Of a DNA stretch of 64,000 bases, positions 1,687 through 16,897 are shown piece after piece. The stretch's first letter is position 1. The number at the start of each line of letters is the position of its first letter. The notes beneath the pieces were generated by a model. The model was given only the letters and a program-made list of their open reading frames with translations. It did no database searches and had not been told where the DNA came from. The stretch spans positions 248,001 through 312,000 of the forward strand of contig NZ_JACHTE010000003.1 of NCBI RefSeq assembly GCF_014145395.1, given 5' to 3'. A program made the position numbers and the translations under genes. This stretch comes from Marilutibacter penaei (GTDB taxonomy: Bacteria; Pseudomonadota; Gammaproteobacteria; Xanthomonadales; Xanthomonadaceae).

Positions 1687-2514
1687 CTAGGACGAGGACG
1701 CCACCCGCAACGCGAGTTCCGTGCGGTTGGACACCCCGGCCTTGCGGAACACGGCATGGATCTGGTTGCGCACCGTATTGGGGCTGGACCCCAGTTCCCG
1801 GGCAATCTGCTTGTTGCTCAGACCGCCTGCTACCAGCCGCAGGATCTCGGCCTCGCGTGCGGTGAACAGGTACCAGTCAAGCCCTTCCGATGCGGCCCGG
1901 GGCACGTTGCCAGGGATCGCCGGACGCATCGCATGCAACCGGGATGCTTCCGAAACCAGGTTGTCGATGACGTGCTTCACGCCGGCCACGTCGGGCCAGG
2001 GGCGGGTCGCACTGATCACCACGAACAGCACCTGCGAGCCCGTCCCCGCTTGCGCATGGATCGCGAAGCGACGGCTCGCTGGCCGACGTGCCAGCAACCG
2101 GCGTCCCACGCAGGCGCAGGCGTCGAAGTCGACGATGGACGGTGCTTGTACGGCCGACCAGATCGCAACCAGCGACGCGCAGTGGCTGCGCAGCGTGCGC
2201 GGCTCCTCGTGGATCTCACCCTCGAGGTGCAGTATCCGGTCGATGTGCACGGCCGGGGTCTCGACCGTCGCCAGGCCGACGGCGAGGCAGTCGACATCGA
2301 GGCAATCGCCATCGATATCCCGGCTTTCGTCTTCGAACAGGCGTGCGCGCAGCACGTCCCAACTGGTTCCATCCCTGTGCAAGGCTTTCCATCTCCGTCT
2401 ACCCGCCCTTCGCGGGTCGCATGCGCGGTACTGCGACGCGCGCTCCAGTATAGGGAGATACGCCAACGCGCCGGCGATCCGGCCGTGAGGTCTGACAGGG
2501 TGGCTCAGCAGCAT
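1687..2514 (-). CDS. LuxR-type HTH transcriptional regulator (no AHL domain seen)
   Basis: The C-terminus is a clear GerE/LuxR helix-turn-helix: LTAREAEILRLVAGGLSNKQ-type sequence (here FTAREAEILRL) followed by NTVRNQIHAVFRKAGVSNRT. The N-terminal part is not a recognisable autoinducer or receiver domain but carries several Cys residues (CLDVDC and CAC), which could sense a thiophilic metal or redox change. It is the last gene of the leftward operon. The ATG at 2514 overlaps the methyltransferase stop by 10 bases. However, the first 44 codons use rare AGA, AGG and ATA codons, so a TTG start at 2382 (231 residues) is equally possible. It is a natural candidate regulator of the cluster. Confidence 0.8.
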   Translation of the reverse strand: MLLSHPVRPHGRIAGALAYLPILERASQYRACDPRRAGRRRWKALHRDGTSWDVLRARLFEDESRDIDGDCLDVDCLAVGLATVETPAVHIDRILHLEGEIHEEPRTLRSHCASLVAIWSAVQAPSIVDFDACACVGRRLLARRPASRRFAIHAQAGTGSQVLFVVISATRPWPDVAGVKHVIDNLVSEASRLHAMRPAIPGNVPRAASEGLDWYLFTAREAEILRLVAGGLSNKQIARELGSSPNTVRNQIHAVFRKAGVSNRTELALRVASSS

Positions 2515-3596
2515 CCACTGCCCGGGGCGCAGGTGTCGGATGGCGGACGGCTGCCATCAAAAGGCACCAGACCCTTGGTGACCCGTACCGGACGTTCGGC
2601 CGGCGTGTTGCAGTCGAACGGCGATGCGGCGTCGAGGGGCGGTTCGTTCACGCTGCGCAGACCGACCAGGTCGCCCCCATAGGGGGATCGCATCAGCAGC
2701 GCATACGTCTTGGCGCAGACCGCGACGCGCTGCCCGCGCCGATAACGATGGCCATCATCGTCGTGAACCTCCCGCCACGGCCCGCGGTACATCACCGCCT
2801 GCCCCAGTTCGAAGCAGGGCCCGGCCTTGCCCTTGAACGCTTCGACCACGCACAGGCGCACCTCGACATCGCCGATGCGGTCGACCGCTTCGGGGTCGGC
2901 GATCGCCGCGAAGTGCAGTTGCAACCCATGGAAACCCGCGGCCTCGAACAGGCCGATGGCGGCCTGCTCCGTCGGCAGGTGGAGGCGATGGCCGGCCTGC
3001 AGTCCCTGGATGGCATGGGGACCATCAAGGGGCTCGTCCGCCACCAGTACCGTGGCCAGCAGGCGTCCGTCCAGGGCCATCACGCGATGGGCCTCGGCGA
3101 GCAGCAAGGGTTGCAGGCCAGGCGCCACGCGGTTGACGGTCAGGTCCAGTACAAGCCTGTCGAACGTGCCGTCCTCCGCCGCCGGTTGCCGGTGCCGCAG
3201 GTCGTCCCGCTGCTCGGAGAACATCAGGTAGGTGTCCAGGTCACGGATTCCGCCGCGCTGGAGCAAGGCTTCCACACCCTCCGCGTCCTCGCGAAGGTCG
3301 TGCAGCCGAAGCAGCCGAAGTGCGCGCGCCCGCTGCTCGCGCACGACCGGCAGCTGTCGAAGGGCGCGATGACGCGTGTCCGCGATCGTGGCCGACGCTG
3401 CGGCCCGGGGCAGCAGTTGCTCGCTGAACCCGGAGTCCTCGATGCCCCACCACAAGATCCGGGGACATACCGCTTGCTCTGTTTCGAATCGATCCTGCAG
3501 CGCGTCGGCGAGCAGGGTTGCCTGGTGCCTCAGCGGGACGGCACGGACCGCATACCGGTCAGGCGCGTTCATGCCAGGGCGTGTGGTCGAGTTCAT
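2505..3596 (-). CDS. ArsM-like SAM methyltransferase with Cys-rich tail
   Basis: A 363-residue protein whose C-terminal third (AFKGKAGPCFELGQAVMYRG, then DDDGH and AVCAKTY) matches the characteristic C-terminal domain of ArsM-type arsenite methyltransferases and their close homologues. The protein ends C356-x5-C362-C363, a vicinal thiol tail like those seen on arsenic-binding members. The central part has a class I methyltransferase-like strand order (TFDRLVLDLTVNRVAPG), but the N-terminal SAM-binding glycine motif is not obvious, so activity is uncertain. I chose the ATG at 3596 because GAGGGG lies 7 bases upstream; it overlaps the preceding SDR gene by 38 bases. It could instead methylate an organic substrate. 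Confidence 0.7.
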   Translation of the reverse strand: MNSTTRPGMNAPDRYAVRAVPLRHQATLLADALQDRFETEQAVCPRILWWGIEDSGFSEQLLPRAAASATIADTRHRALRQLPVVREQRARALRLLRLHDLREDAEGVEALLQRGGIRDLDTYLMFSEQRDDLRHRQPAAEDGTFDRLVLDLTVNRVAPGLQPLLLAEAHRVMALDGRLLATVLVADEPLDGPHAIQGLQAGHRLHLPTEQAAIGLFEAAGFHGLQLHFAAIADPEAVDRIGDVEVRLCVVEAFKGKAGPCFELGQAVMYRGPWREVHDDDGHRYRRGQRVAVCAKTYALLMRSPYGGDLVGLRSVNEPPLDAASPFDCNTPAERPVRVTKGLVPFDGSRPPSDTCAPGSGCC

Positions 3597-4773
3597 CAGG
3601 CGTCCCCTCGAGATATTCGACGACCCGAGGCAACTGGCCCCCGAACCGGGCGTGATAGCGCGCGAGCGGACCGGACGCGGCCACGAAGCGGTCCTGGCAG
3701 ACCTGGACCGTGTCGAGCGTGGCCTGGGTGAACCGCAGCCCGTCCGCCCGCAGGCAGTCCAGCCAGCCGTGTTCGAACCGCCAGGGATAGGCGCCGATTT
3801 CCAGGTTGGTACGGGCGAATGAAAGATAGTTGCGCTGGCGCAGGTCCAGTGCCTTGAGGTCCACTTCGTCGAGGCTGGCATGGAATACCACCTGGTCCGG
3901 GCGCAGCACGTCGCAGAACTGGCGCCAGAGCGCTTTCATCGAAGGGGAGCTGCCGTTGTCGGACACCAGGTTGACATGGGCACCGTCCGGGACGCGGGCG
4001 AGAATCGCCAACAGGGCCGACTGGAACGTGTCCTGGTGCACGAGGTTCAGCGGCTGGTCCGTGGCCACCACGTGGAGGCGGGCGCGATGACGTTCGCTCA
4101 ACAGGCGCTCGATGCCCATCCACTGCTGGTACACGCCATAGCGCTTGCCGCTGTAGCGGCCGTCTTCGGCCGCCCCGATCACGATGGATGGCCGGATCAC
4201 CAGGAAGGGGACGCCCGCCGCCGCGATCGCATGTTCGGCAGCGCGCTTCGTGGCGGTGTAGTGGGTCGGGTCTCGACGCGGTTCGGCCAGCGCCGCCTCG
4301 GGGACCATGGCATCCGAGTACCCGGCCGCATAGGCGGAGGAAATGAAGGCCAGCAGCGACACGTCAGCCAGGCCGGCCGCTTCGGCAACGCGCTGGGTGA
4401 AGGCGACGTTGATCTGGTTCAAGGCGGCTTCGTCGAAGTAGTCGAGGCACCCTGCGCAGTGCACCACGGTATCGATGCGTTCGCGCGCCATCAGTTCGCG
4501 CAATGCCTCGACCGACGCATCTTCTGCGCCCGCCCAGCGATATGCCACGACGCGTGAGGCATGATCCTCCGGGCATGCGCCCAGCGCCTCCAGTTCGCGC
4601 AGGATGGGTGGCGGCAGCGTGCCCGGTGCGATGTCCTGGCGGGTGGGTACCACGACGACGTCGGCCCAACCGTCATGCAGCATCCCTGCGGCCGCCAGCG
4701 CACCGAGGTAACCGGTGCCGCCGGTGAGCAGCACGCGTCCCCCGCGGCGCGCCCGCTCAAGCAGCGCTTTCAT
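3559..4773 (-). CDS. Extended SDR, fatty-acyl/thioester reductase-like
   Basis: A 404-residue NAD(P)-dependent extended short-chain dehydrogenase. The nucleotide-binding motif TGGTGYLG is at residues 17-24. The catalytic set S145/S146, Y172 and K176 (HYTATKRAAEH) is intact. The overall plan fits the NAD_binding_4/thioester-reductase family, which reduces acyl thioesters to aldehydes or alcohols, rather than sugar epimerases. The ATG at 4773 gives the shortest N-terminus compatible with the Rossmann fold and overlaps the upstream thioredoxin-like gene by 17 bases. It sits in an operon with an ADO-like diiron protein, and the divergent operon holds an acyl AMP-ligase. A fatty aldehyde is therefore a plausible product, but the substrate is not shown. 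Confidence 0.75.
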   Translation of the reverse strand: MKALLERARRGGRVLLTGGTGYLGALAAAGMLHDGWADVVVVPTRQDIAPGTLPPPILRELEALGACPEDHASRVVAYRWAGAEDASVEALRELMARERIDTVVHCAGCLDYFDEAALNQINVAFTQRVAEAAGLADVSLLAFISSAYAAGYSDAMVPEAALAEPRRDPTHYTATKRAAEHAIAAAGVPFLVIRPSIVIGAAEDGRYSGKRYGVYQQWMGIERLLSERHRARLHVVATDQPLNLVHQDTFQSALLAILARVPDGAHVNLVSDNGSSPSMKALWRQFCDVLRPDQVVFHASLDEVDLKALDLRQRNYLSFARTNLEIGAYPWRFEHGWLDCLRADGLRFTQATLDTVQVCQDRFVAASGPLARYHARFGGQLPRVVEYLEGTPDELDHTPWHERA

Positions 4774-5176
4774 GGCTTGGAAGGGTATCGAGGGCGGTCC
4801 GGACCAGCGCGACATCCGGCGCACCGCCGAAGGAAACGAGCCTTTGGCTGACCATGACGACCGGGAACGCCGTGAGCCCGTGCGACATGAACAACTCCGA
4901 GACCTGTCCGGCAAGCCGGGCTTCCGCCGGATCCAACCGGCCTTCGAGGGCGCCCAGCGCCCGCTGCGCCTGGGTCAGCGTGAGGTTGAGCACCGGCCAG
5001 TCGAGGCCGGCATCGTCAAGCGCCTTCCGGACGGCTTCTTCCGCACGGGCATCGATGTCGGCCGTGCCCTGCGTGCAGCAACTGGCCGATACGAGCACGG
5101 CGACATCCTTACCCAGCGCCTGTTTGACAAGGGCGAGATCGCCTTCGGGGGGTGCTTTGTTGAACAAGCCGAACAT
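4757..5176 (-). CDS. ArsD/thioredoxin-like small protein with vicinal cysteines
   Basis: A 139-residue probable thioredoxin-fold protein. A vicinal pair C33-C34 (SASCCTQGTADID) sits at the end of the first beta strand, as in the arsenic metallochaperone ArsD (CCSTGVC type), although the third ArsD cysteine is absent. A later segment, LTAFPVVMVSQRLVSFGG, resembles the cis-proline and dimer region of thioredoxin-fold proteins. Small thioredoxin-like proteins are commonly encoded beside DUF318 permeases. The start has GGAGG five bases upstream. It lies between the permease and SDR genes. Likely roles are delivery of a thiol-reactive metalloid to the permease or redox partnering; both are inferred. 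Confidence 0.7.
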   Translation of the reverse strand: MFGLFNKAPPEGDLALVKQALGKDVAVLVSASCCTQGTADIDARAEEAVRKALDDAGLDWPVLNLTLTQAQRALGALEGRLDPAEARLAGQVSELFMSHGLTAFPVVMVSQRLVSFGGAPDVALVRTALDTLPSHESAA

Positions 5177-5195
5177 CCGGACCTCCGGTTCAGGA

Positions 5196-6110
5196 CTACA
5201 GGGTGAGGGCCACGATCAGCCCAAGCAGGAGCGCGCAACCCAGTACGGTGAGGGTGTGTGCCACGACAAGCGGCAAGCGGAACATGCGGAACAACAGGAC
5301 CACTTCCGGCGGACTGGTGCCGATGGCTGCGACCAGGAAGGTCACCAGGGGACCACCGGGAAAGCCCTTCTCCAGAAGTGCAAGTCCGATGGGAAGCGCT
5401 GCAACGGGAGAGATGTAGAGCGGCAGGCCGACCAGGGCGCAGACGAGGTAGAGCGCCGGCAACGGGAGCGCATCCACGAGCGTGAGCAGCGTGTGCGTCG
5501 GCACGGCGCCGTAAATCAGGCCGCCCACCAGCAGGCCGAGGGCCAGATAGGGCCCGGTCCTGCGCAGTTCCTCGCGTGCGGCCCTCCAGGCGAAGCGGCT
5601 CGCGGGCGCCAGGCCCGGCCATGCCGGGCGGGAGGCATCGCCGACGAAGGTCGCGCCGCTGGGCGCGGTGGACATGATGGCGACATGGCGTCCCAGTCCG
5701 ATCCGCGCGGCCACCACGCCGGCGACGGTGGTGAGTGCAAGTCCGGTGGCGATGAACACCAGGCCGGGCCATGCACCGTGGGTGAGGAACAGCAGGATGA
5801 AGACCCCCTCGTTCACCACCGGAGAGGACACCAGGAACGCGAAACTGGGCGCGAATCCAACGCCTGCACGCAACATGCCATTCAGTGCGGGGATGGTTGA
5901 GCATGAGCAGAACGGTGTGACCACCCCGCCCACGCTCGCCAGGAAGGAGGCCTTGAATCCGGACGCTCCGAGCAGTCGGCCCTGCTGGGCCTGGAACGGG
6001 AAGCGCTGTTGCGCCAGGACCACGCCCCAGGTCACCAGCAGGAACAGCCCGATGAGCAGTGCTCCGTCGAGCACGAGGAAGCGGGTGAACTCGCCCAGCC
6101 AATCGGTCAT
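5196..6110 (-). CDS. ArsP/DUF318-family permease
   Basis: A 304-residue integral membrane protein with about eight hydrophobic segments. The family signature TPFCSCSTIPALNG (residues 65-78, with C68 and C70) is followed by a long SPVVNEGVF segment, as in the ArsP_1/DUF318 (PF03773) permeases. Characterised ArsP proteins export trivalent organoarsenicals such as methylarsenite, and other branches act on copper, zinc or unknown substrates. The neighbours, an ArsD-like protein and an ArsM-like methyltransferase, favour the arsenical assignment, but the sequence alone does not prove the substrate. It is the second gene of the leftward operon. Confidence 0.8.
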   Translation of the reverse strand: MTDWLGEFTRFLVLDGALLIGLFLLVTWGVVLAQQRFPFQAQQGRLLGASGFKASFLASVGGVVTPFCSCSTIPALNGMLRAGVGFAPSFAFLVSSPVVNEGVFILLFLTHGAWPGLVFIATGLALTTVAGVVAARIGLGRHVAIMSTAPSGATFVGDASRPAWPGLAPASRFAWRAAREELRRTGPYLALGLLVGGLIYGAVPTHTLLTLVDALPLPALYLVCALVGLPLYISPVAALPIGLALLEKGFPGGPLVTFLVAAIGTSPPEVVLLFRMFRLPLVVAHTLTVLGCALLLGLIVALTL

Positions 6111-6146
6111 GGCCCTTCGCCCTCGCGTCGTGGCGCAGGGGCGGCT

Positions 6147-6989
6147 TCAGTGGCCTGCGAGGCCGGCACTGGCGGAGGGCATCCCGCCGTAGGACTGCAT
6201 CGCCTCGACCAGTGGTGCCGTCACCTCGGGCTCGAAGCCCGCCCGGTCCAGCGTCTCGACGTAGGCATCGAGTGCTTCGATCCGGATCTCGTCGATGTCG
6301 GTCTTGAGGTCACCCAGGCTGAGAGCACCGCAATCAATGTGCAGCCGGTCGCAAAGGAAATGGCAACTGGTGCTGACCATGCTGAACAGCTCGGGCATGA
6401 CGCGATGGTGTGCCCAGCGCAGGCTGTCATTGATGGCGTCGGCATCGTCCTCGCGCATCCGCCGGATGCGCGCGAGCCCGATCTCAAGGTGCTCCAGTTC
6501 GTCCTCGAGGATCTTTCCGGCCAGGCTCGACGTATCCGGGTCGCCTTCGCGCTTGAGCGTGCGATACAGCACGATCGCCATGGTCTCGGTCATCAGGTCC
6601 TGGATCAGCAGGCACGCACCGAGATCCTTGTTGGCGACCGCCGTGCTGAAGTGCCGACGGATGTTGAACCACTGCGGTTCGACGATTTCGCGCATGACGT
6701 CATAGTCGTGCCGCTTGCCAAGGCTGGACAGCATCAGGATGTGCTTGCACTCCTCGTGCGCCTGCTTGACGGCCTCGATCTTGCTTTCGGTGTCCGGCAT
6801 CAGCGGCACCATCTCCGAATAGTTCTCCACGGCCATGATTTCACCCGCTACCGCGTTGGACGCGATGTAGGCGAGCAGATTGAAGTAGCTGTCCCCCTTC
6901 TCGTGGCGGCTCTCGATATGGCTGCGTCGGCTGGGCACGCGAAGGTCGGCCGGACCCGCGAGTGCGGGCGAAGCGGTGGCATTGGACAT
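6147..6989 (-). CDS. Aldehyde-deformylating-oxygenase-like diiron protein
   Basis: A 280-residue ferritin-like helical protein. All six carboxylate/histidine ligands expected for a diiron centre are visible in the order and spacing of cyanobacterial aldehyde-deformylating oxygenase (ADO): E50 (AGEIMAVENY), E80-x2-H83 (EECKH), E135 (CLLIQDLMTETMAI) and E164-x2-H167 (DELEHLEIG). The CLLIQ segment is nearly identical to that of ADO. ADO converts fatty aldehydes to alkanes and formate, but related diiron proteins perform other oxidations. Residues 1-30 are an extension rich in Ala, Ser and Arg. It is the first leftward gene, with GGGAG nine bases before the ATG. ADO-type proteins outside cyanobacteria are rare. 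Confidence 0.8.
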   Translation of the reverse strand: MSNATASPALAGPADLRVPSRRSHIESRHEKGDSYFNLLAYIASNAVAGEIMAVENYSEMVPLMPDTESKIEAVKQAHEECKHILMLSSLGKRHDYDVMREIVEPQWFNIRRHFSTAVANKDLGACLLIQDLMTETMAIVLYRTLKREGDPDTSSLAGKILEDELEHLEIGLARIRRMREDDADAINDSLRWAHHRVMPELFSMVSTSCHFLCDRLHIDCGALSLGDLKTDIDEIRIEALDAYVETLDRAGFEPEVTAPLVEAMQSYGGMPSASAGLAGH

Positions 6990-7274
6990 GGCTCGGACTC
7001 CCTGTTCGAGTGGACGGCGAGGCGAACACGGGAGCCGGGCCCGGTCGGGCAGGCGGCGTCGCTACGCTCGGAGTCGAAGCTACCTGCGTGGGCGAGGTGG
7101 GCGCCATAGTACATAGCTTCTATTCATGCGCTGCGCCCGCACGGCTAGCATCAGGACGCGAAACGTATCGTTCGAGGCGCTGCAATGCGCCCTACGCAAG
7201 GGTTGCAGACGCATCCACGCTGCATTCGATGCCGTGGAGACCAGGGACGAGGAGAAACGGGAGTGGGAGGTCCA
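6990..7274. promoter_or_regulatory. Divergent control region of the accessory cluster
   Basis: This 285-base gap separates the divergent ADO-like and pstS-like genes and must hold both operon promoters. The stretch around 7106-7133 (TAGTACATAGCTTCTATTCA) is strikingly AT-rich against its surroundings and is the best place to look for -10 elements and an operator. No clear lux-box or Pho-box repeat was recognised by eye. Confidence 0.5.
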
Positions 7275-8144
7275 ATGGACGGAAGGCATGGGGTGCGGCC
7301 CCGATGGAGCGTGATGCCCTACGTTGCTCTAGTCATGACCGCAGGCATGTTGGCAGCGTGCGTGAACGGGACGGCGGAGAATGCCGATGGCCGGGGCGGC
7401 GAAGGGCGCATCCTGGTCGTGGGGTCCAGCACCATTGCGCCCCTGATGTCGGAAATTGCCAAAGCGTACGAGGCGGATCATCCCGGCGTGCGTATCGAGG
7501 TCCAGGCAGGGGGCAGCTCGCGGGGGGTGCTCGACGTGCGCCAGGGTGTCGCGGAGCTGGGCATGGTGTCGCGGGCGCTCGCGGAGGATGAAGCGGATCT
7601 CGATCGCGTGCTGGTGGCACGGGACGGGGTGGGCCTTGTCGTGCATCGGGACAACCCCGTGTCGCAGCTGTCCAGGAAGCAGGTCATCGGCATTTATACG
7701 GGTGCCATCGGGAACTGGCGGGATGTCGGCGGGCCCGATCTTCCGATTACCGTGGTCAGCAAGGCCGAAGGGCGTTCGACGCTGGAAATTTTCGTGGAAC
7801 ATTTCGGCATCGCGTATCGCGACATCCGGGCCGATGTCGTCATTGGCGACAACCAGCAGGGTATCCAGACCGTGGCGGGCGCGCCGGGCGCGATCGGCTA
7901 TGTGTCCATCGGTACCGCCGAGTACGAGTCAGGCGCCGGCGTGCCGATCCGCCTGATGCCGCTGGACGGCGAGATGCCCAGCACCGCGGCCGTGGCCAGT
8001 GGCGACTACGGCATGAGCCGAGAGCTCAATCTTGTCTACCGGCCACCCTTGGATGAGCGCATCGCGGGCCTTCTTTCGTATGCGCGATCCGCTGAAGCGG
8101 CGCGCGTGGCCCGCGGCCAGTTCTTCGTGCCCGCCAGCGACTGA
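7275..8144 (+). CDS. pstS: PstS-like phosphate/oxyanion-binding lipoprotein
   Basis: A 289-residue periplasmic binding protein of the PstS type (PBP-like family 2). An N-terminal signal with the lipobox LAAC predicts lipid attachment at C29. The anion-binding loop GSSTIAPLMSEI, plus AGGSSRGVLDV and later GYVSIGTAEY, follow PstS. ATG 7275 was chosen for the GGGAGG four bases upstream. It opens the rightward operon with dedicated pstC, pstA and pstB genes but no phoU, so this is probably not the housekeeping phosphate system. Because PstS proteins also bind arsenate with varying selectivity, oxyanion uptake for the cluster is plausible. Confidence 0.88.
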   Translation: MDGRHGVRPRWSVMPYVALVMTAGMLAACVNGTAENADGRGGEGRILVVGSSTIAPLMSEIAKAYEADHPGVRIEVQAGGSSRGVLDVRQGVAELGMVSRALAEDEADLDRVLVARDGVGLVVHRDNPVSQLSRKQVIGIYTGAIGNWRDVGGPDLPITVVSKAEGRSTLEIFVEHFGIAYRDIRADVVIGDNQQGIQTVAGAPGAIGYVSIGTAEYESGAGVPIRLMPLDGEMPSTAAVASGDYGMSRELNLVYRPPLDERIAGLLSYARSAEAARVARGQFFVPASD

Positions 8145-8159
8145 GCAAAGAGCGCGACG

Positions 8160-9068
8160 ATGTGGACCTCAGCGGGCACGGATGCTCCCAGCCCGGCGCC
8201 GCCCGGGTTGCGTCGTCGCAGCCGATGGGGGGATCAGCTGTTCTGGCTGGGGATGGCGCTACTCGCAGCCATGGCGGCCTCGACGGTCCTCCTGATCGCA
8301 TGGTTGCTGCTGTCCGAAAGCCTGCCGTTGATCCTCAAGGGCGGTGCCTGGCGCTTCCTCTCCGACCCCGGATGGTGGCCCCGGGAAGGCAGTTTCAACA
8401 TGGCGCCCATGGCACTCGCCAGCCTCCTGCTCACCGTGGGTGCGCTCACCCTGGCGGCACCGTTTGGAATCGCCTACGCCATACACACGGTCTTCAACGC
8501 CGGGCCCCGGCAGGCCGTCTTGCTGGGCGGGCTGGTGGAGGCCAGCGCGGCGGTGCCCACGGTGGTCTATGGCCTGTGGGGCATCACCGCGGTGGTGCCC
8601 CTGCTGGGGCAGGTGAACCCGCCGGGGGCCAGCCTTGCGGCCGGCATCGTCGTCGTCGCGGTGATGATCTTCCCGACTCTGACCCTGCTCGTTCAAGCTG
8701 CGCTGCGTGCGGTGCCCGCGCACTATGCCCATTCCGCGGAGGCGCTGGGCGTTTCCCGGGGGCAGGTGATCCTGCGCATCATCCTGCCAGCGGCGCGCAA
8801 GGGGGTGCTATCGGCCATGGTGCTCGCGGCGGCCCGCGCCATCGGCGAGACCATGGTGGTCCTCATGGTGTGCGGGAACATCGTGCAGGTGCCGGGCTCG
8901 GTCTTCGAGCCGGTGCGCACGCTGACAGCCAACATCGCGCTCGAAATGCCTTACGCAATGGGCGATCACCGGATGTCGCTGTTCGTGGCCGGTCTGCTCA
9001 TGCTCGTGCTGATCGCCGTCATGGTGATGCTCGGCGGAACGCTCGCACGCGGGCGCCGCCACACATGA
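8160..9068 (+). CDS. pstC: Phosphate-type ABC transporter permease PstC-like
   Basis: A 302-residue inner-membrane permease with six predicted membrane segments. The EAA-loop region SAEALGVSRGQVILRIILPA around residues 195-215 and the RAIGETMVVLMVCGN segment are typical of PstC. It starts 15 bases after the pstS stop, and its stop overlaps the pstA ATG in an ATGA, which indicates translational coupling. It forms the channel with PstA for whatever oxyanion PstS binds. Confidence 0.9.
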   Translation: MWTSAGTDAPSPAPPGLRRRSRWGDQLFWLGMALLAAMAASTVLLIAWLLLSESLPLILKGGAWRFLSDPGWWPREGSFNMAPMALASLLLTVGALTLAAPFGIAYAIHTVFNAGPRQAVLLGGLVEASAAVPTVVYGLWGITAVVPLLGQVNPPGASLAAGIVVVAVMIFPTLTLLVQAALRAVPAHYAHSAEALGVSRGQVILRIILPAARKGVLSAMVLAAARAIGETMVVLMVCGNIVQVPGSVFEPVRTLTANIALEMPYAMGDHRMSLFVAGLLMLVLIAVMVMLGGTLARGRRHT

Positions 9069-9955
9069 GGGGGTGGCGAGCGAAGCCCGTTCCGTGGCGG
9101 CCCGGCAGCAACGGATCGACAGTCCCCGCGCTGCTGACCGGGATCACGGTCCTGGTCCTGGCCTGGCCTCTATGGATGGTGGCGTCGAAGGGCGTGCCGT
9201 TGCTCGGCCCTGAATTCCTGATCTCGTCCCCGCGCGACGCGGGTCGGGCCGGCGGCATCGCACCGATCCTGGTCTCGACGCTCGGAATCGTTTCGATCAG
9301 TCTGGCGGCGGCCCTTCCCCCGGCGTTCGCGGTAGCCACGATGCTGTCCGAAGCCCTGCCTGCCGGAGGCCGGACGGCGCGCCTCATTCGCGGCAGCCTG
9401 GATGTGCTCGCGGGAGTGCCCTCGATCGTGTTCGGAATATTCGGCCTGGTCCTGTTCTGCCGAAAGCTGGGGATGGGCTACTCGATTGCCGCCGGCGGAC
9501 TGACCTTGGCCTGCATGATCCTGCCCACGCTGGCACGTGCGATCCACGTCGCCCTGGAGGCAGCAGCGGAGGAGCATCGGAATGCAGGCCTCGCGCTGGG
9601 ACTCTCGCGCCGTGCGGTCTTGTGCCGGGTGCTGGTGCCCGTCGCGCTGCCCGGGATCTGTGCCGGCATGGTCCTGGGGCTGACCCGTGCGCTGGCGGAA
9701 ACCGCGGTGCTGCTGTTCACGAGCGGGTACTCGGACCGGATGCCCGGCTCGGTCCTGGACTCCGGACGCAGCATCTCGGTCCATATCTACGAGTTGTCGA
9801 CCAACGTTCCGGGCGGTACTGCACCGGCTTACGGCTCGGCGCTTGCACTGTTGCTGCTGCTCGCGTGCCTGAGCCTGGCCATGCATGGCCTGCTGCGATG
9901 GATGCATCGCAGGCTGGCAGGCATGGCCATACCTACAGGAGGGTCAACCGGGTGA
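9065..9955 (+). CDS. pstA: Phosphate-type ABC transporter permease PstA-like
   Basis: A 296-residue permease. Family features are VLAGVPSIVFGIFGLVLF, the coupling loop NAGLALGLSRRAVLCRVLVP and RALAETAVLLFTSGY, all placed as in PstA. It overlaps pstC by four bases and its own stop overlaps the GTG of pstB (GTGA). The tight packing shows that the transporter genes are expressed as one unit with the downstream ligase and exporter genes. Confidence 0.9.
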   Translation: MRGWRAKPVPWRPGSNGSTVPALLTGITVLVLAWPLWMVASKGVPLLGPEFLISSPRDAGRAGGIAPILVSTLGIVSISLAAALPPAFAVATMLSEALPAGGRTARLIRGSLDVLAGVPSIVFGIFGLVLFCRKLGMGYSIAAGGLTLACMILPTLARAIHVALEAAAEEHRNAGLALGLSRRAVLCRVLVPVALPGICAGMVLGLTRALAETAVLLFTSGYSDRMPGSVLDSGRSISVHIYELSTNVPGGTAPAYGSALALLLLLACLSLAMHGLLRWMHRRLAGMAIPTGGSTG

Positions 9956-10794
9956 ACCAGATCGCCATGAGCGGGCCGTGCAACGCAAGGCTCCGGGATG
10001 AAGACGACCTTTCGGCCTGCTGCGGATCGTCCCACGAAGCCATCGAGCTGGACGACGTCAGCGTGAGTTATGGCGACGAGGCCGTGGTGACCGACGTGGC
10101 CCTGCGGATTCCCCGCAACGCCGTGACCGCGTTGATCGGTCCATCCGGGTGCGGAAAGTCGAGTCTTCTGTATTGCCTGAACCGGATGTGCGATCTGATT
10201 CCCGGCTGTCGGACACGGGGCAGCGTGCGCTTTGGATGGCTCGACAACGAGCGCCTGGCCTGCGATCCGACGATCCTTCGACGGCACGTCGGCATGCTGT
10301 TCCAGCGACCGGGGCCGTTTCCGTTTTCCATCCGCCGCAATATCGAGTTCGCGCTCCGCCAGCATGGTGTCCGCGCCCGTCCGGACCTCGACGAGCGCGT
10401 GGAGTGGTCGCTGCGCGAGGCTGGCCTGTGGGATGAAGTGCGCGATCGCCTGGACAGGCCGGCCTTGGGTCTGTCAGGTGGGCAGCAGCAGCGATTGTGC
10501 CTGGCGCGGGCGCTGGCGCTGGATCCTTCGGTACTGCTGATGGACGAACCCTGCAGCGCGCTGGATCCCATCTCCACCCGCAAGCTCGAGGAACTGATCC
10601 GGCGGCTTGCCCGTGACCGGACCATCGTGCTGGTCACGCACAGCCTCCCCCAGGCGCGCCGTGTCGCCGACCACGTCGCTTTGCTTTGGAAGGCTGAAGG
10701 GGATGCAGGGCGTCTCGTCGAACATGGTCACGCGCGGCGCTTCTTCGAACAGCCCCATCATGCAGTGACGCGCGAGTACCTGAGCTTCGCGTGA
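9952..10794 (+). CDS. pstB: Phosphate-type ABC transporter ATPase PstB-like
   Basis: A 280-residue ABC ATPase. Walker A is GPSGCGKSS, the signature is LSGGQQQRL, Walker B is LLMDEPCSALDP and the switch histidine is in THSLPQARR. The Q-loop reads FQRPGPFPFSIRRNIE instead of the usual FQKPNPFPKSIYDN of PstB, so this is a diverged member. I chose GTG 9952 because GGAGGG precedes it and it overlaps the pstA stop; ATG 9967 is the alternative. The N-terminal extension contains an unusual Cys and Cys-Cys pair before the ATPase core. Confidence 0.9.
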   Translation: MNQIAMSGPCNARLRDEDDLSACCGSSHEAIELDDVSVSYGDEAVVTDVALRIPRNAVTALIGPSGCGKSSLLYCLNRMCDLIPGCRTRGSVRFGWLDNERLACDPTILRRHVGMLFQRPGPFPFSIRRNIEFALRQHGVRARPDLDERVEWSLREAGLWDEVRDRLDRPALGLSGGQQQRLCLARALALDPSVLLMDEPCSALDPISTRKLEELIRRLARDRTIVLVTHSLPQARRVADHVALLWKAEGDAGRLVEHGHARRFFEQPHHAVTREYLSFA

Positions 10795-10866
10795 TGGGAC
10801 CGCCGTCGGGGCGGATGGTACATCCATTCCATTGAGCGACCCGGGGCCGGTTCCTAGCATCGATGC

Positions 10867-12441
10867 ATGGCCTTCCTTCCCGAATCCGGTGCGGCGTCGT
10901 CGTTCGGCATGTCAGTGCAGCCCTTGCGCGTCGAGGCATTGCTGGACCATGCCGCGCGGGTGCATCCCCGGTCCACGGTCACCACGGCCGGAGCCGCAGG
11001 CACCTCGAAGAGCCTGTCCTATCCGGAGCTGGCGGAGGCGGCCGGCCACGTCGCAGTCCTGATGCAGGCCGCGGGATTCAGGCCGGGGGACCGCATTTTC
11101 CTTCTTGCCCATGCGGCGGCGGAAGTCCTTGCCTGGACGTACGGTGCGGCACGCCTGGGCGTCGTTCCTCATTTCGCCAACCCGGGTCATGGCGCCGGGA
11201 CGCTTCGGATGCAGTGGACGAAATCCGGTGCACGCTGGCTGCTTCACGATGCCGCATGCGAGGCGCTGGCCCTTGAATGCGTGGCGGGCGGGGACGAGGC
11301 TTCCCTGCGGCGGCTGGACATGGCGTCCGCCCCCGCGCTGCGAGCCGGCCTCAAGGAGGATCCGCGACCCGAAGGCGCGCTGGCACTGGTGTGCTACTCG
11401 TCCGGTACCACTGGACTGCCGAAGGTGGTGGCATTCACCCATCGCTCCACCGTGCTGCACGCGTTCGCTTGCGCCTTGCCTGATGCGATGTGTCTCGCTT
11501 CGTCTGACCGGGTGATGCCGCTCGTGCAGCCTTTCCATGCCGCCGCCTGGGCCGCGCCGTTCGCGTGTCCGCTGGTGGGCGCTTCGCTGGTGCTGGTGCC
11601 GCCGAGTGCCGAACCTGCGCAATGGTACGAATGGATCGAGGTGCACCGCGTCACCGTGCTCGGCGCGGTCACGGCTCAATGGCGGATGCTGCTGGCGTAC
11701 ATGGAGCAGCACAACCTGCATTTCAGTACGTTGCGGAGGACGGTGGTGGCCGGCACCCGGATGCCGCCGGCCGTCGCCACGCGAATCGTTGATCGCCTCG
11801 GCGTCGAGGTCAGGCAAGCGTGGGGCATGACCGAGACGTCACCGCTGGCCACGATCGGCTGCCACGGTCGTGTTCGGGAGACTGCACACGGTCGCCCCGT
11901 GTTCGGTGTCCAGGTCGCCGTGCGCAACTGGGCGGGTACCTTGCAGCCCGGCGGGATGGGAGAGCTGATGGTGCGCGGTCATTGGGTGGCGACGCCCGGC
12001 TGGAACGGCGAATGGCTGTCCACCGGCGACCTTGCGATGGTGCATGCCGATGGCGGCGTCGAGGTGGTGGACCGTCTGTGCGATGTCGTGCACGGGACCT
12101 CCGGCCCGCTCAGCTCCGCCCTGGTGGAATACGAAGCCTGCGTGCAGGAAGGCGTGGCAGATGCCGCGCTACTGGCCATGGAAGGCCACTTTCCGCACGG
12201 GGTGTTGGCGTGGGTCGCACGGGATGGAAGCGAGCCGGCGCGGATCGTCGACGGCCTTCGACAACGCCTCGCCACCGCTTTCGATGGCTGGAATCCGGAC
12301 CGATTCGTTCGTGTGGATGCGTTGCCCTTCACCTCATCAGCGAAAGTCAGGAAGACGCAGCTGAAGGCCGAGCTTCTGGCGGCCGGGCATCTTTCCGCGC
12401 CGAACCCGGGTTCCGGGAAGCCGGCCCGGGCGCCGGCATGA
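10867..12441 (+). CDS. AMP-dependent acyl ligase, AlkK-like
   Basis: A 524-residue member of the ANL superfamily, which activates carboxylic acids as acyl-AMP and usually acyl-CoA. Motif A3 is SSGTTGLPK (residues about 178-186), A5 is WGMTETS (about 318), A7 is STGDLA (about 386) and the A10 lysine is in SSAKVRK (about 490). The layout around PLVQPFHAAAWAAP resembles medium- and long-chain fatty acyl-CoA ligases such as AlkK. The usual motif between A7 and A10 (SGGEWISS type) is altered here to GTSGPLSS. It follows pstB by 72 bases and overlaps the next gene in an ATGA. The substrate is unknown; a fatty acid is likely. Confidence 0.85.
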   Translation: MAFLPESGAASSFGMSVQPLRVEALLDHAARVHPRSTVTTAGAAGTSKSLSYPELAEAAGHVAVLMQAAGFRPGDRIFLLAHAAAEVLAWTYGAARLGVVPHFANPGHGAGTLRMQWTKSGARWLLHDAACEALALECVAGGDEASLRRLDMASAPALRAGLKEDPRPEGALALVCYSSGTTGLPKVVAFTHRSTVLHAFACALPDAMCLASSDRVMPLVQPFHAAAWAAPFACPLVGASLVLVPPSAEPAQWYEWIEVHRVTVLGAVTAQWRMLLAYMEQHNLHFSTLRRTVVAGTRMPPAVATRIVDRLGVEVRQAWGMTETSPLATIGCHGRVRETAHGRPVFGVQVAVRNWAGTLQPGGMGELMVRGHWVATPGWNGEWLSTGDLAMVHADGGVEVVDRLCDVVHGTSGPLSSALVEYEACVQEGVADAALLAMEGHFPHGVLAWVARDGSEPARIVDGLRQRLATAFDGWNPDRFVRVDALPFTSSAKVRKTQLKAELLAAGHLSAPNPGSGKPARAPA

Positions 12442-15400
12442 GCAGCATCGGGCATCCCGATGGGACCGTCTCGCGCCGTCCAACCGACGAGGTGGATGCA
12501 GTAGAAGGCGGCCTGTCCCGCTACCTGCAATGGGTGGTACGTCGTCGGGTCTGGGTGATTGCGCTGGTCGTGGTGGTCACGGCCGTGCTGGGGACCTTCG
12601 CCGCTCGCCAGCAGGTCATCATCAACCCCGCCACCGTGGTGCCCCAGGGCCACCCGTACATCCAGGCAACGAACACCATCGAACGGATCTTCGGGTCGAA
12701 GTACCTCGTGGTGATCGGTGTGACCCCCACCCAGGGCGACGCCCTGCAGCCCCGCGTGCTGGAGACGGTCCAGGACATCACGCGTGCACTGTACGCGTCG
12801 CCGTCGGTGAGCAAACAGACGCTGCTCAGCCTGTCTTCGCGGCAGGCCAAGGGGATCGCGGCCACCGCCGAGGGGTTCGAAGTGTCGCCCCTGATGCCGA
12901 CGGTTCCGCGGGACGAGCCGGGCCGGCAGGCCTTGCGCGATGCGCTCCAGGCCAATCCGGTCTACCGCGATTCGGTGATCTCCTCGGACTGGAAGACCGC
13001 GACCGTGCTGGTGGAGTTGAAGGAGGATGCCGGGGGGTTCGGCGCGATGCTGCGGGACGTCGATGCCATCGTCGAGGCTGCGCGGGGTCCCGGCATCGAG
13101 ATATCGGTCGGCGGCAACCCGGTGTTCCTCCACCAGGCCGAGGTCTTCGCGGACCGCATCAACTGGCTTTTCCCGATCGCGGTACTGGTGATCGGACTGT
13201 TGCATTTCGAAGCGTTCCGGACCGTCCAGGGCCTCGTACTCCCTCTGGTGACCGCCGTGCTGTCGGTGGTGTGGGGCGTCGGGATCATGGGCGCCATGGG
13301 CGTGCCGATGGACATCTTCAATTCCCCCACGCCGATCCTCATCCTGGCCGTGGCGGCCGGGCACGCCGTGCAGCTTCTGAAACGCTACTACGAGTGCTAT
13401 GCCGTACGGGCGGGCGAGCAGGGCATGGTGCCGGAGCTCGCCAACCGGCAGGCGATCGTCGATGCGCTGCTCGCAGTTGGACCGGTGCTGGTGATTGCAG
13501 GAGGCGTGGCGGCACTCGGCTTCTTCTCGCTGGTGGTGTTCCAGCTGGAGACCGTGCGCGCCTTTGGCATCTTCACGGGGATTGGCATCCTGTCCGCGGT
13601 GGTGCTTGAGTTCACCTTCACGCCGGCGGTCCGCGCCAGTCTTCGTCCGCCTCGTCTGCAGCACATTGAGCCCGGTGGCGGTACGCGGATCTGGGACCGC
13701 ATTGCGGGAGGCATCGCCGTGGCGGTGGAGCGCCCAGCAACGCGACGGCGCCTCATATGGGCCGTGGCCCTTCTCGTGGCGCTCGCGATGGTCGGGTGGC
13801 CTCGCGTGCAGGTGGACAACGCCAGCAAGACATTCTTTGACGAAACGCTGCCGGTGCAGCGCGACGATGCCTTGCTCAACGCGCGTACCGGTGGAACCAA
13901 CGCGCTTTACGTGATGATCGACAGTGGTGCGGTCGACGGGATCAAGTCGCCACAGGTTCTGGCCGCGCTGCGTACGTTGCAGGCCGCCGCGGACGCGTAT
14001 CCGGAGGTCGGCAAGACCGTGTCGATCGACGACTTCCTGTCCCGCATGCACGTGGCGGTGACCGGGGATGGCGACGCATCGGCCCTGGTCGACCCGAGGA
14101 ACGGGGCGCTGATCGCGCAGTACCTCTTCCTCTACGCCATGTCGGGCGACCCCGGGGATTTCTCGGCGCATGTCGACTACGAGTACCGTCGGGCCAAGCT
14201 TTCGGTGATGCTGCGGACGCACAGCAATGCCGAGATCGCCGCGCTGGTGGACCACCTGCGCGACGTGGCGGGCGCGGTGATACCCGATGGGACGTCCGTT
14301 TCGTTCGGCGGTGAGGTTGCGCAGACCCTGGCCGTGACCGACGTGATGGTGCGCAGCAAGCTCCTGAACATCATCCAGATCCTGGCCGTGATCTTCCTCG
14401 TGTCCGCGATGGCGTTCCGGTCGTTCCTGGCGGGTGCGCTGGTGCTCTCGCCGCTGCTCGTGGTCCTGTCGCTGGTGTTCGGCGTGATGGGCCACTTCGG
14501 CGTGCCATTGAATATTCCGAACTCGCTCATTTCGGCCATGGCCGTCGGCATCGGCGCGGACTATGCGATCTACCTGATCCATCGAACGCGCGAGTACGCC
14601 CTGCAAGGCATCGCGCTGGAAGACGCGATCAATCGTGCGATCCGTACTGCTGGCAAGGCCTGCCTGTTCGTGGCCACGGCCGTGGCGGGTGGGTATGCCG
14701 TCCTTTTCCTTTCCCATGACTACAACGTGCATATGTGGCTTGCGACTTTCATCGTGCTGGCAATGGTCGCCAGCGTCCTCACCGCACTGGTGCTGATACC
14801 CGCTGCCCTGCTGGTTCTGCGGCCTGCCTTCCTGGTGCGGGATCGGTCCGGCGACCGGGGAGCGGTGCTGCTGGTGATCGCGGCGGCGATCGGCTTCCTG
14901 GCGTACTCGCAGCTTGCGTGGGCCGGAGACGACGCCCGCGCGATCATGGAACGGAACGCCGACGTCATGCGCTTCGCGACGGCGAAGTCGCAGGCGCGCT
15001 TCGAGCTGGTCTCGGCGTCCGGTGGCCAGCGCCGACGTGAGGCGGACCTCCGGTCGCGTCTCCGTCCTGGTGGACGCGACACCGAGCGGCTGATCCGTTT
15101 CGAATCTCCTGCCGACATCCGCGGCACCGCGACGCTGCTGGTCGAGGACAGCGTCAACGGCGACGGCATGTGGGTGTACCTGCCGGCCCTGAAACGGGTG
15201 CGTCGCCTGGCGGCTTCGAACCGCAAGGACAGTTTCGTGGGCACGGACTTCAGCTACGGCGACGTGATGGGGCATCGCGTCGAGGACTGGACCCATGTGC
15301 TGGAGGGAGAGCGCTCGCGCGATGGCATGCCCCATTGGGTGGTGGCGTCCGTTCCCGCCACGCAGGCGGTGCGCGACGACAGTGGATACGGCAAGCGGAT

Positions 15401-15647
15401 CACCTGGATCCGCCAGGACAACCATGCCGCCACGCGAGTCGACGTGTTCGATACCGGCGGGCAGCCCTACAAACGCTTCGAGTTCAAGGACCTGCGCGAG
15501 GTCGCTCCGGGCAAATGGCAGCCGATGGAAGCGCGCGGCGAGAACCTGCAGAGCGGTCATCGCACTACGATCACCTTCACCGGCTTCGAAGCGGGGGTGC
15601 CCTTGGCCGATGACCTGTTCTCTCCCAATCGCCTGGATCGACCCTGA
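12438..15647 (+). CDS. RND/MMPL-family transporter fused to a LolA-like outer-membrane lipoprotein-sorting domain
   Basis: A 1069-residue protein. Residues about 30-800 are a two-repeat RND/MMPL lipid exporter with 12 membrane segments (GLLHFEAFRTVQGLVLP in repeat 1, GIGADYAIYLIHRTREY in repeat 2). From about residue 810 a hydrophobic stretch ending in LAWA-GDD, looking like a former signal peptide, leads into a soluble domain of about 240 residues. Its WVYLPALKRVRRL and DFSYGDVMG motifs are typical of LolA-like outer-membrane lipoprotein-sorting proteins, which are normally separate genes beside such transporters. It overlaps the ligase by four bases and the porin by one. It probably extracts a lipid from the inner membrane and carries it across the periplasm. 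Confidence 0.88.
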   Translation: MSSIGHPDGTVSRRPTDEVDAVEGGLSRYLQWVVRRRVWVIALVVVVTAVLGTFAARQQVIINPATVVPQGHPYIQATNTIERIFGSKYLVVIGVTPTQGDALQPRVLETVQDITRALYASPSVSKQTLLSLSSRQAKGIAATAEGFEVSPLMPTVPRDEPGRQALRDALQANPVYRDSVISSDWKTATVLVELKEDAGGFGAMLRDVDAIVEAARGPGIEISVGGNPVFLHQAEVFADRINWLFPIAVLVIGLLHFEAFRTVQGLVLPLVTAVLSVVWGVGIMGAMGVPMDIFNSPTPILILAVAAGHAVQLLKRYYECYAVRAGEQGMVPELANRQAIVDALLAVGPVLVIAGGVAALGFFSLVVFQLETVRAFGIFTGIGILSAVVLEFTFTPAVRASLRPPRLQHIEPGGGTRIWDRIAGGIAVAVERPATRRRLIWAVALLVALAMVGWPRVQVDNASKTFFDETLPVQRDDALLNARTGGTNALYVMIDSGAVDGIKSPQVLAALRTLQAAADAYPEVGKTVSIDDFLSRMHVAVTGDGDASALVDPRNGALIAQYLFLYAMSGDPGDFSAHVDYEYRRAKLSVMLRTHSNAEIAALVDHLRDVAGAVIPDGTSVSFGGEVAQTLAVTDVMVRSKLLNIIQILAVIFLVSAMAFRSFLAGALVLSPLLVVLSLVFGVMGHFGVPLNIPNSLISAMAVGIGADYAIYLIHRTREYALQGIALEDAINRAIRTAGKACLFVATAVAGGYAVLFLSHDYNVHMWLATFIVLAMVASVLTALVLIPAALLVLRPAFLVRDRSGDRGAVLLVIAAAIGFLAYSQLAWAGDDARAIMERNADVMRFATAKSQARFELVSASGGQRRREADLRSRLRPGGRDTERLIRFESPADIRGTATLLVEDSVNGDGMWVYLPALKRVRRLAASNRKDSFVGTDFSYGDVMGHRVEDWTHVLEGERSRDGMPHWVVASVPATQAVRDDSGYGKRITWIRQDNHAATRVDVFDTGGQPYKRFEFKDLREVAPGKWQPMEARGENLQSGHRTTITFTGFEAGVPLADDLFSPNRLDRP

Positions 15648-16897
15648 TGAGCGGCCGCGGCCGGGTCGCCGCGACCGTCAGGGCGATCGTGATGGCAGCG
15701 GGCGTGGGCGGCGTGCTCCCGCCGTTGCAGGCGGCCGGCCCTGCACTCGAGGGCGAGTTCGCGGCGGGACTGTGGTCCTCGGACCGGCGGCTTGAAGACC
15801 GCAGTGGCATTGCCAGTGCGCGGGCGCGCCTGGCCCTCGACTGGCAGGTCGGAGAGGGGGTGTCGGTACGCGGCGAGGCCTGGGCCGCCTGGGGTCCCGA
15901 GCGCCTGGACGGTCGAAGCTGGGACGCAGGCCTGCGTCGGCTGCTGGTGGCGTTCGATTCGGTGCCCTGTACGCCCGCGCTCGGCCGGGAAGAAATACTG
16001 TGGGGCCGTTCCGACGGGCTCAATCCGACCGATCAGGTATCGCCGCGAAACTTCCTGCGCCTCAGCCCCCGGGATCGAGACCAGCGCAGTGGACGCGGAG
16101 GTCTGCACCTCGATTGCATGCTCGGGGAGGGGCGGTTTCAGGCCCACTGGCTCGGTGAGTTCCACTTCAACGACGTCCCGCTGCCCCTGCCGCCAGGCGT
16201 ACGTTTCAGGGAGGACGATGCGGATGCAGGCGCCGACATCGCGATGCGCTATGAGCGTCGTGGCCAGCGACTCGACTGGGCACTCAGCGTGCTCGACGGC
16301 CATGACCCCTATCCCACGCTTGCAGTCCGCGATGTGAGGCCAAGTGGGCTGCTGCTCGGACGCGATGCCAGCCCGATCCGGATGCTGGGAGGGGATGCCG
16401 CACTCGCCATCGGGACGGCCGTGCTGCGCGCCGAGGTCGCGCGGACGTGGCAGGACGGGAACGGTCGGGCAGGATCGGCACGGCGGCCTTCGCATACGGC
16501 GGTGGTGGCCGGGGCTGAGTGGTTCGTGGGCGACATGGCCACGTTCTCGGTGCAGGGTTTCTGGAAGCATCTCGATGGGCGGGGCGGCACGGCGACGGTA
16601 CCGGCCCGCATCCAGCAGGCCCAGGGCCTGCTGGCGAACGAGGTTGACCGGAACCAGCATGGGCTGACCCTGCGCTATGCGCGGCCGCTGTGGGAAAGCC
16701 GGGGCGACGTGGAGGTGTTCGCCGTCTGGTCCCGGCCCCGGGACGACTGGATGTTGCGGGCAAGGCTTGAGCGGAGCCTCGGGGACCGGAGTGTGCTGCG
16801 CATCGGCGCGGACCTCTTTGGCGGTCCGGCCGACAGCTATCTGGGAAACCTCCGTGACAACTGCCTGGCGGTGGCCGAACTGGGCTACGCCTGGTGA
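15647..16897 (+). CDS. DUF1302-like outer-membrane beta-barrel protein
   Basis: A 416-residue exported protein with a signal peptide cleavable near LQAA. The segment EEILWGRSDGLNPTDQVSPR at residues about 113-132 is the family hallmark of DUF1302-like outer-membrane proteins that accompany MMPL/RND and LolA-like partners. The rest shows alternating beta-strand patterns, and the protein ends in an aromatic-containing strand (ELGYAW) as expected for a barrel. It is the last gene of the rightward operon, and its ATG overlaps the previous stop. It likely completes export of the cluster product to the outer membrane or outside. Confidence 0.8.
   Translation: MSGRGRVAATVRAIVMAAGVGGVLPPLQAAGPALEGEFAAGLWSSDRRLEDRSGIASARARLALDWQVGEGVSVRGEAWAAWGPERLDGRSWDAGLRRLLVAFDSVPCTPALGREEILWGRSDGLNPTDQVSPRNFLRLSPRDRDQRSGRGGLHLDCMLGEGRFQAHWLGEFHFNDVPLPLPPGVRFREDDADAGADIAMRYERRGQRLDWALSVLDGHDPYPTLAVRDVRPSGLLLGRDASPIRMLGGDAALAIGTAVLRAEVARTWQDGNGRAGSARRPSHTAVVAGAEWFVGDMATFSVQGFWKHLDGRGGTATVPARIQQAQGLLANEVDRNQHGLTLRYARPLWESRGDVEVFAVWSRPRDDWMLRARLERSLGDRSVLRIGADLFGGPADSYLGNLRDNCLAVAELGYAW

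Follow-up and report, generated by a model that had tools for sequence, protein, structure and literature searches.

A rare gene cluster of Marilutibacter penaei that joins a cysteine-bearing ADO-like protein to arsenic-type and lipid-type genes

Genes of the divergent cluster

We analysed a stretch of 64,000 nucleotides from the Marilutibacter penaei genome (contig NZ_JACHTE010000003.1, positions 248,001 to 312,000; hereafter the window), in which positions 1687-16897 carry a divergent gene cluster that an earlier note had suggested may build and export an arsenic-containing lipid or hydrocarbon. The cluster is flanked by trpE (30-770) and trpG, both named from their translations, in a genome of 3.17 Mb. 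Read from the centre outward, the minus-strand operon encodes a protein related to aldehyde-deformylating oxygenase (ADO), an ArsP_1 permease, a Cys-Cys protein of 139 amino acids, a short-chain dehydrogenase/reductase (SDR), an ArsM-like protein and a LuxR regulator. The plus-strand operon runs pstS, pstC, pstA, pstB, an AMP-ligase, a resistance-nodulation-division (RND) permease fused to a LolA domain, and a barrel protein (Table 1). At several junctions, adjoining genes share a few bases. The G+C content of the cluster (0.673) is close to that of its surroundings (0.656-0.685), and the cluster therefore forms no compositional island. Open reading frames, translations and family scans agreed that all the genes named in the earlier note are present and open and lie in the order it gave; that their grouping exceeds chance is borne out by the repetition of this order in loci of Pseudomonas, Lysobacter, Rubrivivax and Roseateles. 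The Pfam and NCBIfam scans covered ten cluster proteins, with pstC, pstA and pstB, named from their translations, outside the Pfam scan.

Table 1. Features of the cluster, in window coordinates
Feature	Position	Strand	Basis
LuxR/GerE-type regulator	1687..2514	-	PF00196 (GerE) 55 bits; cysteine columns
ArsM-derived protein, CC tail (SGCC)	2505..3572	-	homology, cysteine alignment, model
SDR, thioester-reductase / male-sterility type	3559..4773	-	NAD_binding_4 60 bits
Thioredoxin-like / ArsD-like protein, 139 amino acids	4757..5176	-	C33-C34 invariant in 15/15
ArsP_1 (DUF318) permease	5196..6110	-	ArsP_1 116.1 bits (cut-off 32.3)
ADO-like diiron protein	6147..6989	-	Ald_deCOase 57 bits (cut-off 28); fold match; cysteine alignment
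Conserved 18-bp dyad ATAGAAGCTATGTACTAT	7106..7123	between divergent operons	motif counts
pstS-like binding protein	7275..8144 (alternative start 7314)	+	PBP_like_2 131 bits
pstC-like permease	8160..9068	+	56-62% to pstC of seven type 1 loci
pstA-like permease	9065..9955	+	conserved with other type 1 loci
pstB-like ATPase, divergent second copy	9967..10794	+	TIGR00972 312.8 bits (cut-off 343.2)
AMP-forming acyl ligase	10909..12441 (alternative start 10867)	+	AMP-binding 213 bits
HAE3/MMPL-type RND permease fused to LolA_like	12438..15647	+	MMPL 140 bits, LolA_like 176 bits, 1069 amino acids
Predicted outer-membrane barrel, at most distantly DUF1302-like	15647..16897	+	1/7 aligned barrels matches DUF1302

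The ADO-like protein and its partners

The structural model of the ADO-like protein (predicted local distance difference test, pLDDT, 87) matched the ADO structure 4rc5 with a VIA Z of 27.1 over 221 residues at 2.2 Å, the next family reaching Z 20.7 among the chains that Foldseek ranked, and Foldseek matched it to 4kvq at 1.5e-8. Residues E50, E80, H83, E135, E164 and H167, which we take to be the diiron ligands of ADO, are invariant in 21/21 aligned ADO-like proteins, and the same six positions align with two canonical ADOs of the cyanobacterium Adonisia. The window protein nevertheless stays far below the ADO equivalog cut-off (TIGR04059, 54.5 bits vs 222.65); on PF11266, the two canonical Adonisia ADOs score 402 and 355 bits and a variant encoded in the same genome 59. 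One cysteine, C126, is common to the ADO-like proteins and the two canonical Adonisia enzymes, whereas the motif C209-x3-C213-x6-C220 is invariant in 21/21 ADO-like proteins and absent from 2/2 of the canonical ones. Judged by these alignments, the ADO-like group forms an ADO subfamily marked by extra cysteines.

A single search of GTDB species genomes, with the ADO-like protein as query, yielded 19 further loci, several of them close relatives of one another; named carriers include Pseudomonas farris, Roseateles subflavus, Chitinolyticbacter albus and Sphingomonas pokkalii. A core of ADO-like protein and SDR is present in 19/20 loci including the window, the cyanobacterial locus having the ADO only. 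Type 1 (10 loci including the window; L050-L055, L060, L066 and L067) keeps the order ado-permease-CysCys-sdr-ArsM-like-luxR, with the divergent pst-ligase-RND half in 8/10 (it is absent within 10 kb in L054, and L067 ends at a contig edge). All seven type 2 loci (L056-L059 and L061-L063) join ado and sdr to a type-3 (SBP3-type) binding protein, an ATPase, two permeases and OsmC; the ArsP_1 permease and the Cys-Cys gene occur in 6/7 (not L063), an FtsX permease in 6/7 of the fetched stretches (not L058), a LolA-like gene in L056, L057, L059, L061 and L063, and a barrel gene downstream in the one extended locus (L069, same genome as L056). Type 3 comprises L064 (Sphingomonas) and L065 (Myxococcales), each with two ado genes and sdr, and L068 (Adonisia) holds an ADO relative of 41% without sdr. 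The suggestion that pst, ligase and RND genes constantly accompany the core did not hold, type 2 having an SBP3-type importer, OsmC and FtsX/LolA instead. As a combination in its own right, an amino-acid-type ABC importer and OsmC joined to the ADO core can be seen in L069 (7992-16551) and L058 (13579-16697).

The position of a terminal Cys-Cys (CC) pair differs between these types. In 10/10 type 1 loci the CC tail is on the ArsM-like protein and none is on the ADO; in 7/7 type 2 loci, where the ArsM-like protein is missing, it is on the ADO itself. A CC end is also found on the Adonisia ADO variant and on one L065 paralogue, and one ADO paralogue of L064 has CC pairs near its end. The permease contributes a TPFCSCS motif, with C68 and C70 invariant in 15/15. 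Taken across the cluster, this cysteine pattern would suit a thiophilic metalloid.

Support for the name "ArsM-like" is weaker than the earlier note implied. Against ArsM-family proteins from other genomes the window protein shows 33-34% identity (best E 1.2e-33), and its model (pLDDT 75.5) has ArsM/AS3MT structures as all of its top 13 Foldseek matches (3.1e-11), although the TM-scores are low (0.34-0.42 by query length). No Pfam family matches it at E 0.1, and it scores 59.8 bits on the NCBIfam ArsM model (cut-off 500); that model is the best one for each of the 10/26 comparison proteins scanned, at 336-362 bits, all likewise under the cut-off. Fold comparison was used in addition because the family profile gave no significant match to PDB sequences (best E 0.59). 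Six positions are Cys in 26/26 ArsM-family proteins and in 0/9 type 1 ArsM-like proteins; of 29 foreign loci this comparison leaves out three, L010 and L011 because of an internal stop and L028 because it is truncated, and the type 1 set omits L045, which shares a contig with L052, and the near-duplicate L066. The glycine-rich S-adenosylmethionine (SAM) loop (DLGSGAGK) is also gone from the type 1 proteins, which have an LWWGGxYSELL-like sequence instead, and the window protein retains the C-terminal ArsM cysteines C253, C286, C321, C354 and C355. Because of the six lost cysteines and the changed SAM loop we rejected arsenic methylation, which the earlier note implied for it; the protein would not be expected to methylate arsenite by the established route. 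It is derived from ArsM, and our guess is that it might serve as a carrier or scaffold. The cluster thus reveals, alongside the cysteine-bearing ADO subfamily, an ArsM relative stripped of its family cysteines.

The Cys-Cys protein had been called ArsD-like, a name with partial support: hhalign aligned it to ArsD with a probability of 75% over 39 columns, but its Cys-Cys lies outside the aligned columns. It has no Pfam ArsD match at E 0.1, and what the family profile drew from PDB sequences, largely HIV RNase H entries, looks like chance (best E 0.028). None of the ADO-like, ArsM-like and Cys-Cys proteins of the window exceeds the cut-off of any NCBIfam model (release 20.0). Four Pst-type subunits are present, PstC and PstA being identified solely through conservation with other type 1 loci. 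The second PstB of the genome, on another contig, scores 375.6 bits, above the TIGR00972 cut-off.

Importers in types 1 and 2 would also fit transport in the other direction, with ABC importers bringing in an organoarsenical or arsenolipid, the enzymes oxidising or degrading it and the permease expelling the arsenic. The nearest model of the permease is that of the efflux protein SaoE, and ArsI/CadI-family and ArsH genes adjoin the cluster in L061, both of which agree with uptake and breakdown. We nevertheless consider this account improbable, since the acyl ligase, the SDR, the fatty acyl-AMP ligase (FAAL) and polyketide synthase (PKS) neighbours and the RND/FtsX-LolA exporters indicate synthesis and outward transport, and ArsI and ArsH are not part of the conserved core.

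In the SDR, S145, Y172 and K176 are invariant in 18/18, and the solved structures nearest to its profile are the reductase domains of MxaA, AusA, PKS and nonribosomal peptide synthetases (best PDB match MxaA 4u7w, 2.1e-18); the enzyme would be expected to reduce an acyl thioester to an aldehyde. The ligase carries the nucleotide motif SSGTTGLPK and a C-terminal SAKV motif. LolA-type sequences take two forms: a domain of the RND permease in type 1 (eight loci), and a gene of its own next to FtsX genes in type 2 (five loci) and in L065. The RND-LolA fusion is a putative lipid exporter. Resemblance of the barrel to DUF1302, claimed in the earlier note, could be traced in one relative (2.6e-8), but the window barrel itself has no significant Pfam match.

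The alkane route follows the same logic, an SDR acting before an ADO. One alternative is therefore an arsenic-induced hydrocarbon pathway, in which an ordinary alkane or lipid would form a protective outer-membrane layer, the Ars-like genes would detoxify and the product would hold no arsenic. The retention of the six diiron ligands and the ADO fold, the thioester-reductase type of the SDR and the lipid type of the exporter are all as expected for such a pathway. A plain alkane would not, however, need the three extra invariant cysteines of the ADO subfamily or the CC tail on the ADO where the ArsM-like protein is missing, and an arsM gene inside the ado-sdr operon of L063 would be superfluous. 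We regard this alternative as rather unlikely.

Arsenic genes beside homologous clusters

In 6/19 loci the usual core is accompanied by additional arsenic genes (aioBA, acr3, arsH/arsI or arsM). In L055 (Roseateles), aioB (160.3 bits, cut-off 95.65) and aioA (1172.7, cut-off 359.05) lie between the ArsM-like gene and luxR on the same strand. In L064, aioB-aioA begin 3.6 kb after sdr, within 6 kb of the ado genes (aioA 1174.9 bits), with a PHO4 phosphate transporter gene between sdr and aioBA. Divergent from and adjoining ado, L057 carries ACR3 (378.7 bits, cut-off 282.8), an ArsC-like LMWP protein under its cut-off and ArsR. The run arsR-arsI-arsC-arsC-aqp-arsH stands directly before ado in L061 (ArsH 408.6 bits, cut-off 292.25; ArsI 137.6, cut-off 116; both ArsC-like genes under cut-off). 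Finally, two loci carry arsM: in L063 it separates ado from sdr (247.6 bits, under the cut-off of 263), and in L068 it stands three genes upstream of ado (265.9, cut-off 263). Both proteins have all three motif cysteines (GCG, NCV and AC). The proposed link between arsenic and lipid genes thus recurs outside the window, through aioBA, acr3-arsC-arsR, an arsI/arsH run and arsM in or near homologous loci. The window genome itself encodes an ACR3 (378 bits) on another contig.

A marker match was defined as at least 80 bits to a fixed set of ten queries. By this measure 14/19 loci have some match, 7 of them solely the type 1 ArsM-like gene, which was not counted; nor do the six include L054, whose only other match is an aquaporin with 74% likeness to the L061 one. 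As a control, 1/72 random 20-kb windows, drawn from a subset of contigs of 12/19 genomes and overlapping in some cases, held an arsenic marker, an AioA-like protein at 29% (6/19 vs 1/72; Fisher p 2.5e-4). The earlier note had named the loss of Ars-like genes from loci that keep the lipid genes as a finding contrary to its reading. Such loss was met in part, in type 3 and in L063, without permease and Cys-Cys gene, but L064 carries aioBA and L063 an arsM. Across the 15 kb of L065 no tested arsenic marker was found; all that it has is a CC tail on one ADO paralogue.

The Adonisia turfae locus (L068 6539-20769, L104 17611-19923) deserves a description of its own. It encodes arsM, two fatty-acid desaturases, the CC-tailed ADO variant, a FAAL, a PKS and an acyltransferase and, further on, a second AMP-ligase/ketosynthase protein, and it resembles a cyanobacterial arsenic polyketide or lipid cluster.

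Several results weigh against an arsenic-containing product, or against arsenic altogether. No tested arsenic marker besides the cluster's own ArsM-like gene is seen in 12/19 loci, and nine of the ten marker queries come from the loci themselves. The models that score highest for the permease are those of SaoE and a Cu/Zn exporter, ahead of any arsenic-specific one and all under cut-off; the type 2 importer resembles amino-acid importers, a poor fit for arsenic; and in L055 the gene after luxR is of the CusF-like copper type. The ArsM-like protein, lacking the six ArsM cysteines, is probably not an arsenite methylase. The window genome contains no other clear ArsM, and with it 12/19 other carrier genomes lack one, as judged with the arsenite methyltransferase model (best scores 41-69 bits against a cut-off of 263); dimethylated arsenolipids are therefore unlikely there. 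An ArsM-family gene of at least 160 bits is present in the remaining 7/19 cluster-bearing genomes.

The 12 loci without a further marker and the CusF-like gene would equally suit a thiophilic element or cofactor other than arsenic (selenium, tellurium, antimony or copper), or chance co-location in heavy-metal islands. So would copper-type open reading frames recognised by eye in L059, an RND metal/drug efflux set upstream of ado in L054 and a weak match of OsmC to an OsmC-related (seleno)protein model (25.8 bits, cut-off 95). Arsenic genes nevertheless recur at varied positions, in some cases within the operon (L055, L063), and in four lineages, against 1/72 control windows, and we judge this explanation quite improbable.

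Proposed pathway, regulation and distribution

We tentatively read the cluster as a lipid pathway dedicated to arsenic, with an arsenolipid as its probable product, and give this combined reading very nearly an even chance. Taken separately, dedication to arsenic is likely, and an arsenic-containing product falls a little short of even. In such a pathway the extra PstSCAB would import arsenate or another arsenic species, and the Cys-Cys protein and the CC-tailed C-terminal domain of ArsM type would hold cytosolic As(III). The ligase would activate a fatty acid and the SDR would turn the acyl thioester into an aldehyde, from which the ADO-like enzyme would strip one carbon, leaving a shorter chain to be joined to arsenic at or near its three-cysteine motif. 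Transport of the lipid to the outer membrane would fall to the RND-LolA fusion and the barrel, the permease would dispose of trivalent arsenicals, and the LuxR protein would switch both operons through a shared dyad.

A bolder and unlikely version has the ADO-like enzyme itself make the C-As bond without SAM. Aldehyde deformylation by ADO gives an alkyl radical one carbon shorter than the substrate; As(III) held at C209-x3-C213-x6-C220 or at the CC tail might capture this radical to form an alkylarsenical. Natural arsenic hydrocarbons (AsHC) consist of an alkyl chain on a dimethylarsinoyl group, and by our computation the masses of AsHC 332, 360, 388 and 444 fit chains of C15, C17, C19 and C23. 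Such chains are one carbon short of an even fatty acid, which an ADO-type C-As step would explain. AsHC 374, whose mass fits C18, departs from this pattern, barring an odd fatty acid as precursor; it is described, in the accessible part of the source, as a minor compound (PMC11009773). If true, C-As bond making by an ADO would be a new class of bacterial organometalloid synthesis.

Among known systems, the cyanobacterial alkane pathway (acyl-ACP reductase and ADO) shares the diiron ADO fold, the six ligands and a reductase expected to give an aldehyde; the present cluster differs from it in the low equivalog score given above, the Cys motif, the thioester-reductase SDR, the arsenic genes and the exporter. 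The Sao organometal system presumably combines, as the cluster does, an ArsP_1-type permease, an ABC importer and a thioredoxin-like protein; to our knowledge it has no ADO, SDR or lipid exporter, and the window permease reaches 70.7 bits on the SaoE model (cut-off 325). The arsQML arsinothricin and ArsM/ArsS arsenosugar systems have ArsM homology in common with the cluster, from which they differ in that the present ArsM-like protein lacks the six ArsM cysteines.

The bsn cluster of Streptomyces (bisenarsan), as outlined in the accessible text, is arsenic-induced and makes an acylated organoarsenical without SAM enzymes, by a route in which a 5-enolpyruvylshikimate-3-phosphate (EPSP) synthase homologue, a mutase and a decarboxylase lead toward the C-As product (PMC12159101). 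The likeness lies in an arsenic-linked acylated product formed without SAM enzymes, which for our cluster is a proposal; no EPSP-synthase-like or mutase gene (bsnMN) and no decarboxylase of that route was found among the ten scanned cluster proteins, to which the search was limited. According to the same text, radical SAM enzymes place adenosyl or aminocarboxypropyl radicals on arsenic (PMC12159101); no radical SAM protein is among the ten. Arsenic islands with aioBA and pst1, as far as the accessible part of their description goes, share extra pst genes with the cluster and aioBA with L055 and L064 (PMC7533571). That part also reports arsenic in the cell lipids of Agrobacterium and calls the lipid step in arsenite oxidisers unknown, without naming its genes; the ADO/SDR/RND-LolA core is unmentioned in it (PMC7533571). 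Algae are said, again in the accessible text, to hold several yet unknown arsenic pathways, and some species to have no arsenic hydrocarbons (PMC11009773). A description of the cluster was not found in the open-access literature searched, and may be published elsewhere. For the question of how arsenic enters the lipids of bacteria and algae, the cluster supplies defined genes together with a regulator, a probable operator and named carrier strains.

Cysteines C112, C133 and C135 of the LuxR protein are invariant in 8/8 aligned type 1 proteins (8 of the 10 type 1 loci, L055 and L066 being left out), and the protein is likely a thiol or metalloid sensor. The dyad ATAGAAGCTATGTACTAT occurs once in the window, where 0.03 matches were expected, and its strict form occurs once in the genome and is present in 8/10 type 1 genomes. 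A loose form lies 5' of ado in 9/10 type 1 loci, the exception being L054. The dyad is not cluster-specific everywhere: 3/10 genomes (G849, G851 and G865) have extra strict copies, and the loose form also appeared once in a random control window (L133). Because the luxR gene is linked to it, we consider the dyad the probable LuxR operator. The type 1 regulators with three invariant cysteines (for example L060 14615-15307) may form a new class of metalloid sensors.

The cluster is rare. The ADO profile was detected in 1/398 genomes of a phylum-wide sample, that of M. penaei itself, and a class sample of 274 added one other close ADO relative (65% identity, G128) and two weak ones. A strong ArsM-like relative was present in 1/197 other genomes of the family sample (51%, G386) and the gene in 0/6 same-genus genomes of that sample; no ADO-like relative was found on plasmids at E 1e-5. 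In G386, a Lysobacter metagenome-assembled genome, the cluster occupies the same place beside trpG (L045 1-2549 vs window 15647-17874), the trpG genes being 82% identical.

Two homologous loci carry further genes. After its type 2 genes, L058 (17274-20126) encodes a ferredoxin, a SolI-like P450 (454 bits, cut-off 850) and a 383-amino-acid protein that has no NCBIfam match and appears membrane-bound by eye. In the type 1 locus L053 of Rubrivivax, a SorA/SoxC-like sulfite dehydrogenase gene (4951-6282), under cut-off, is inserted between the ligase gene and pstB.

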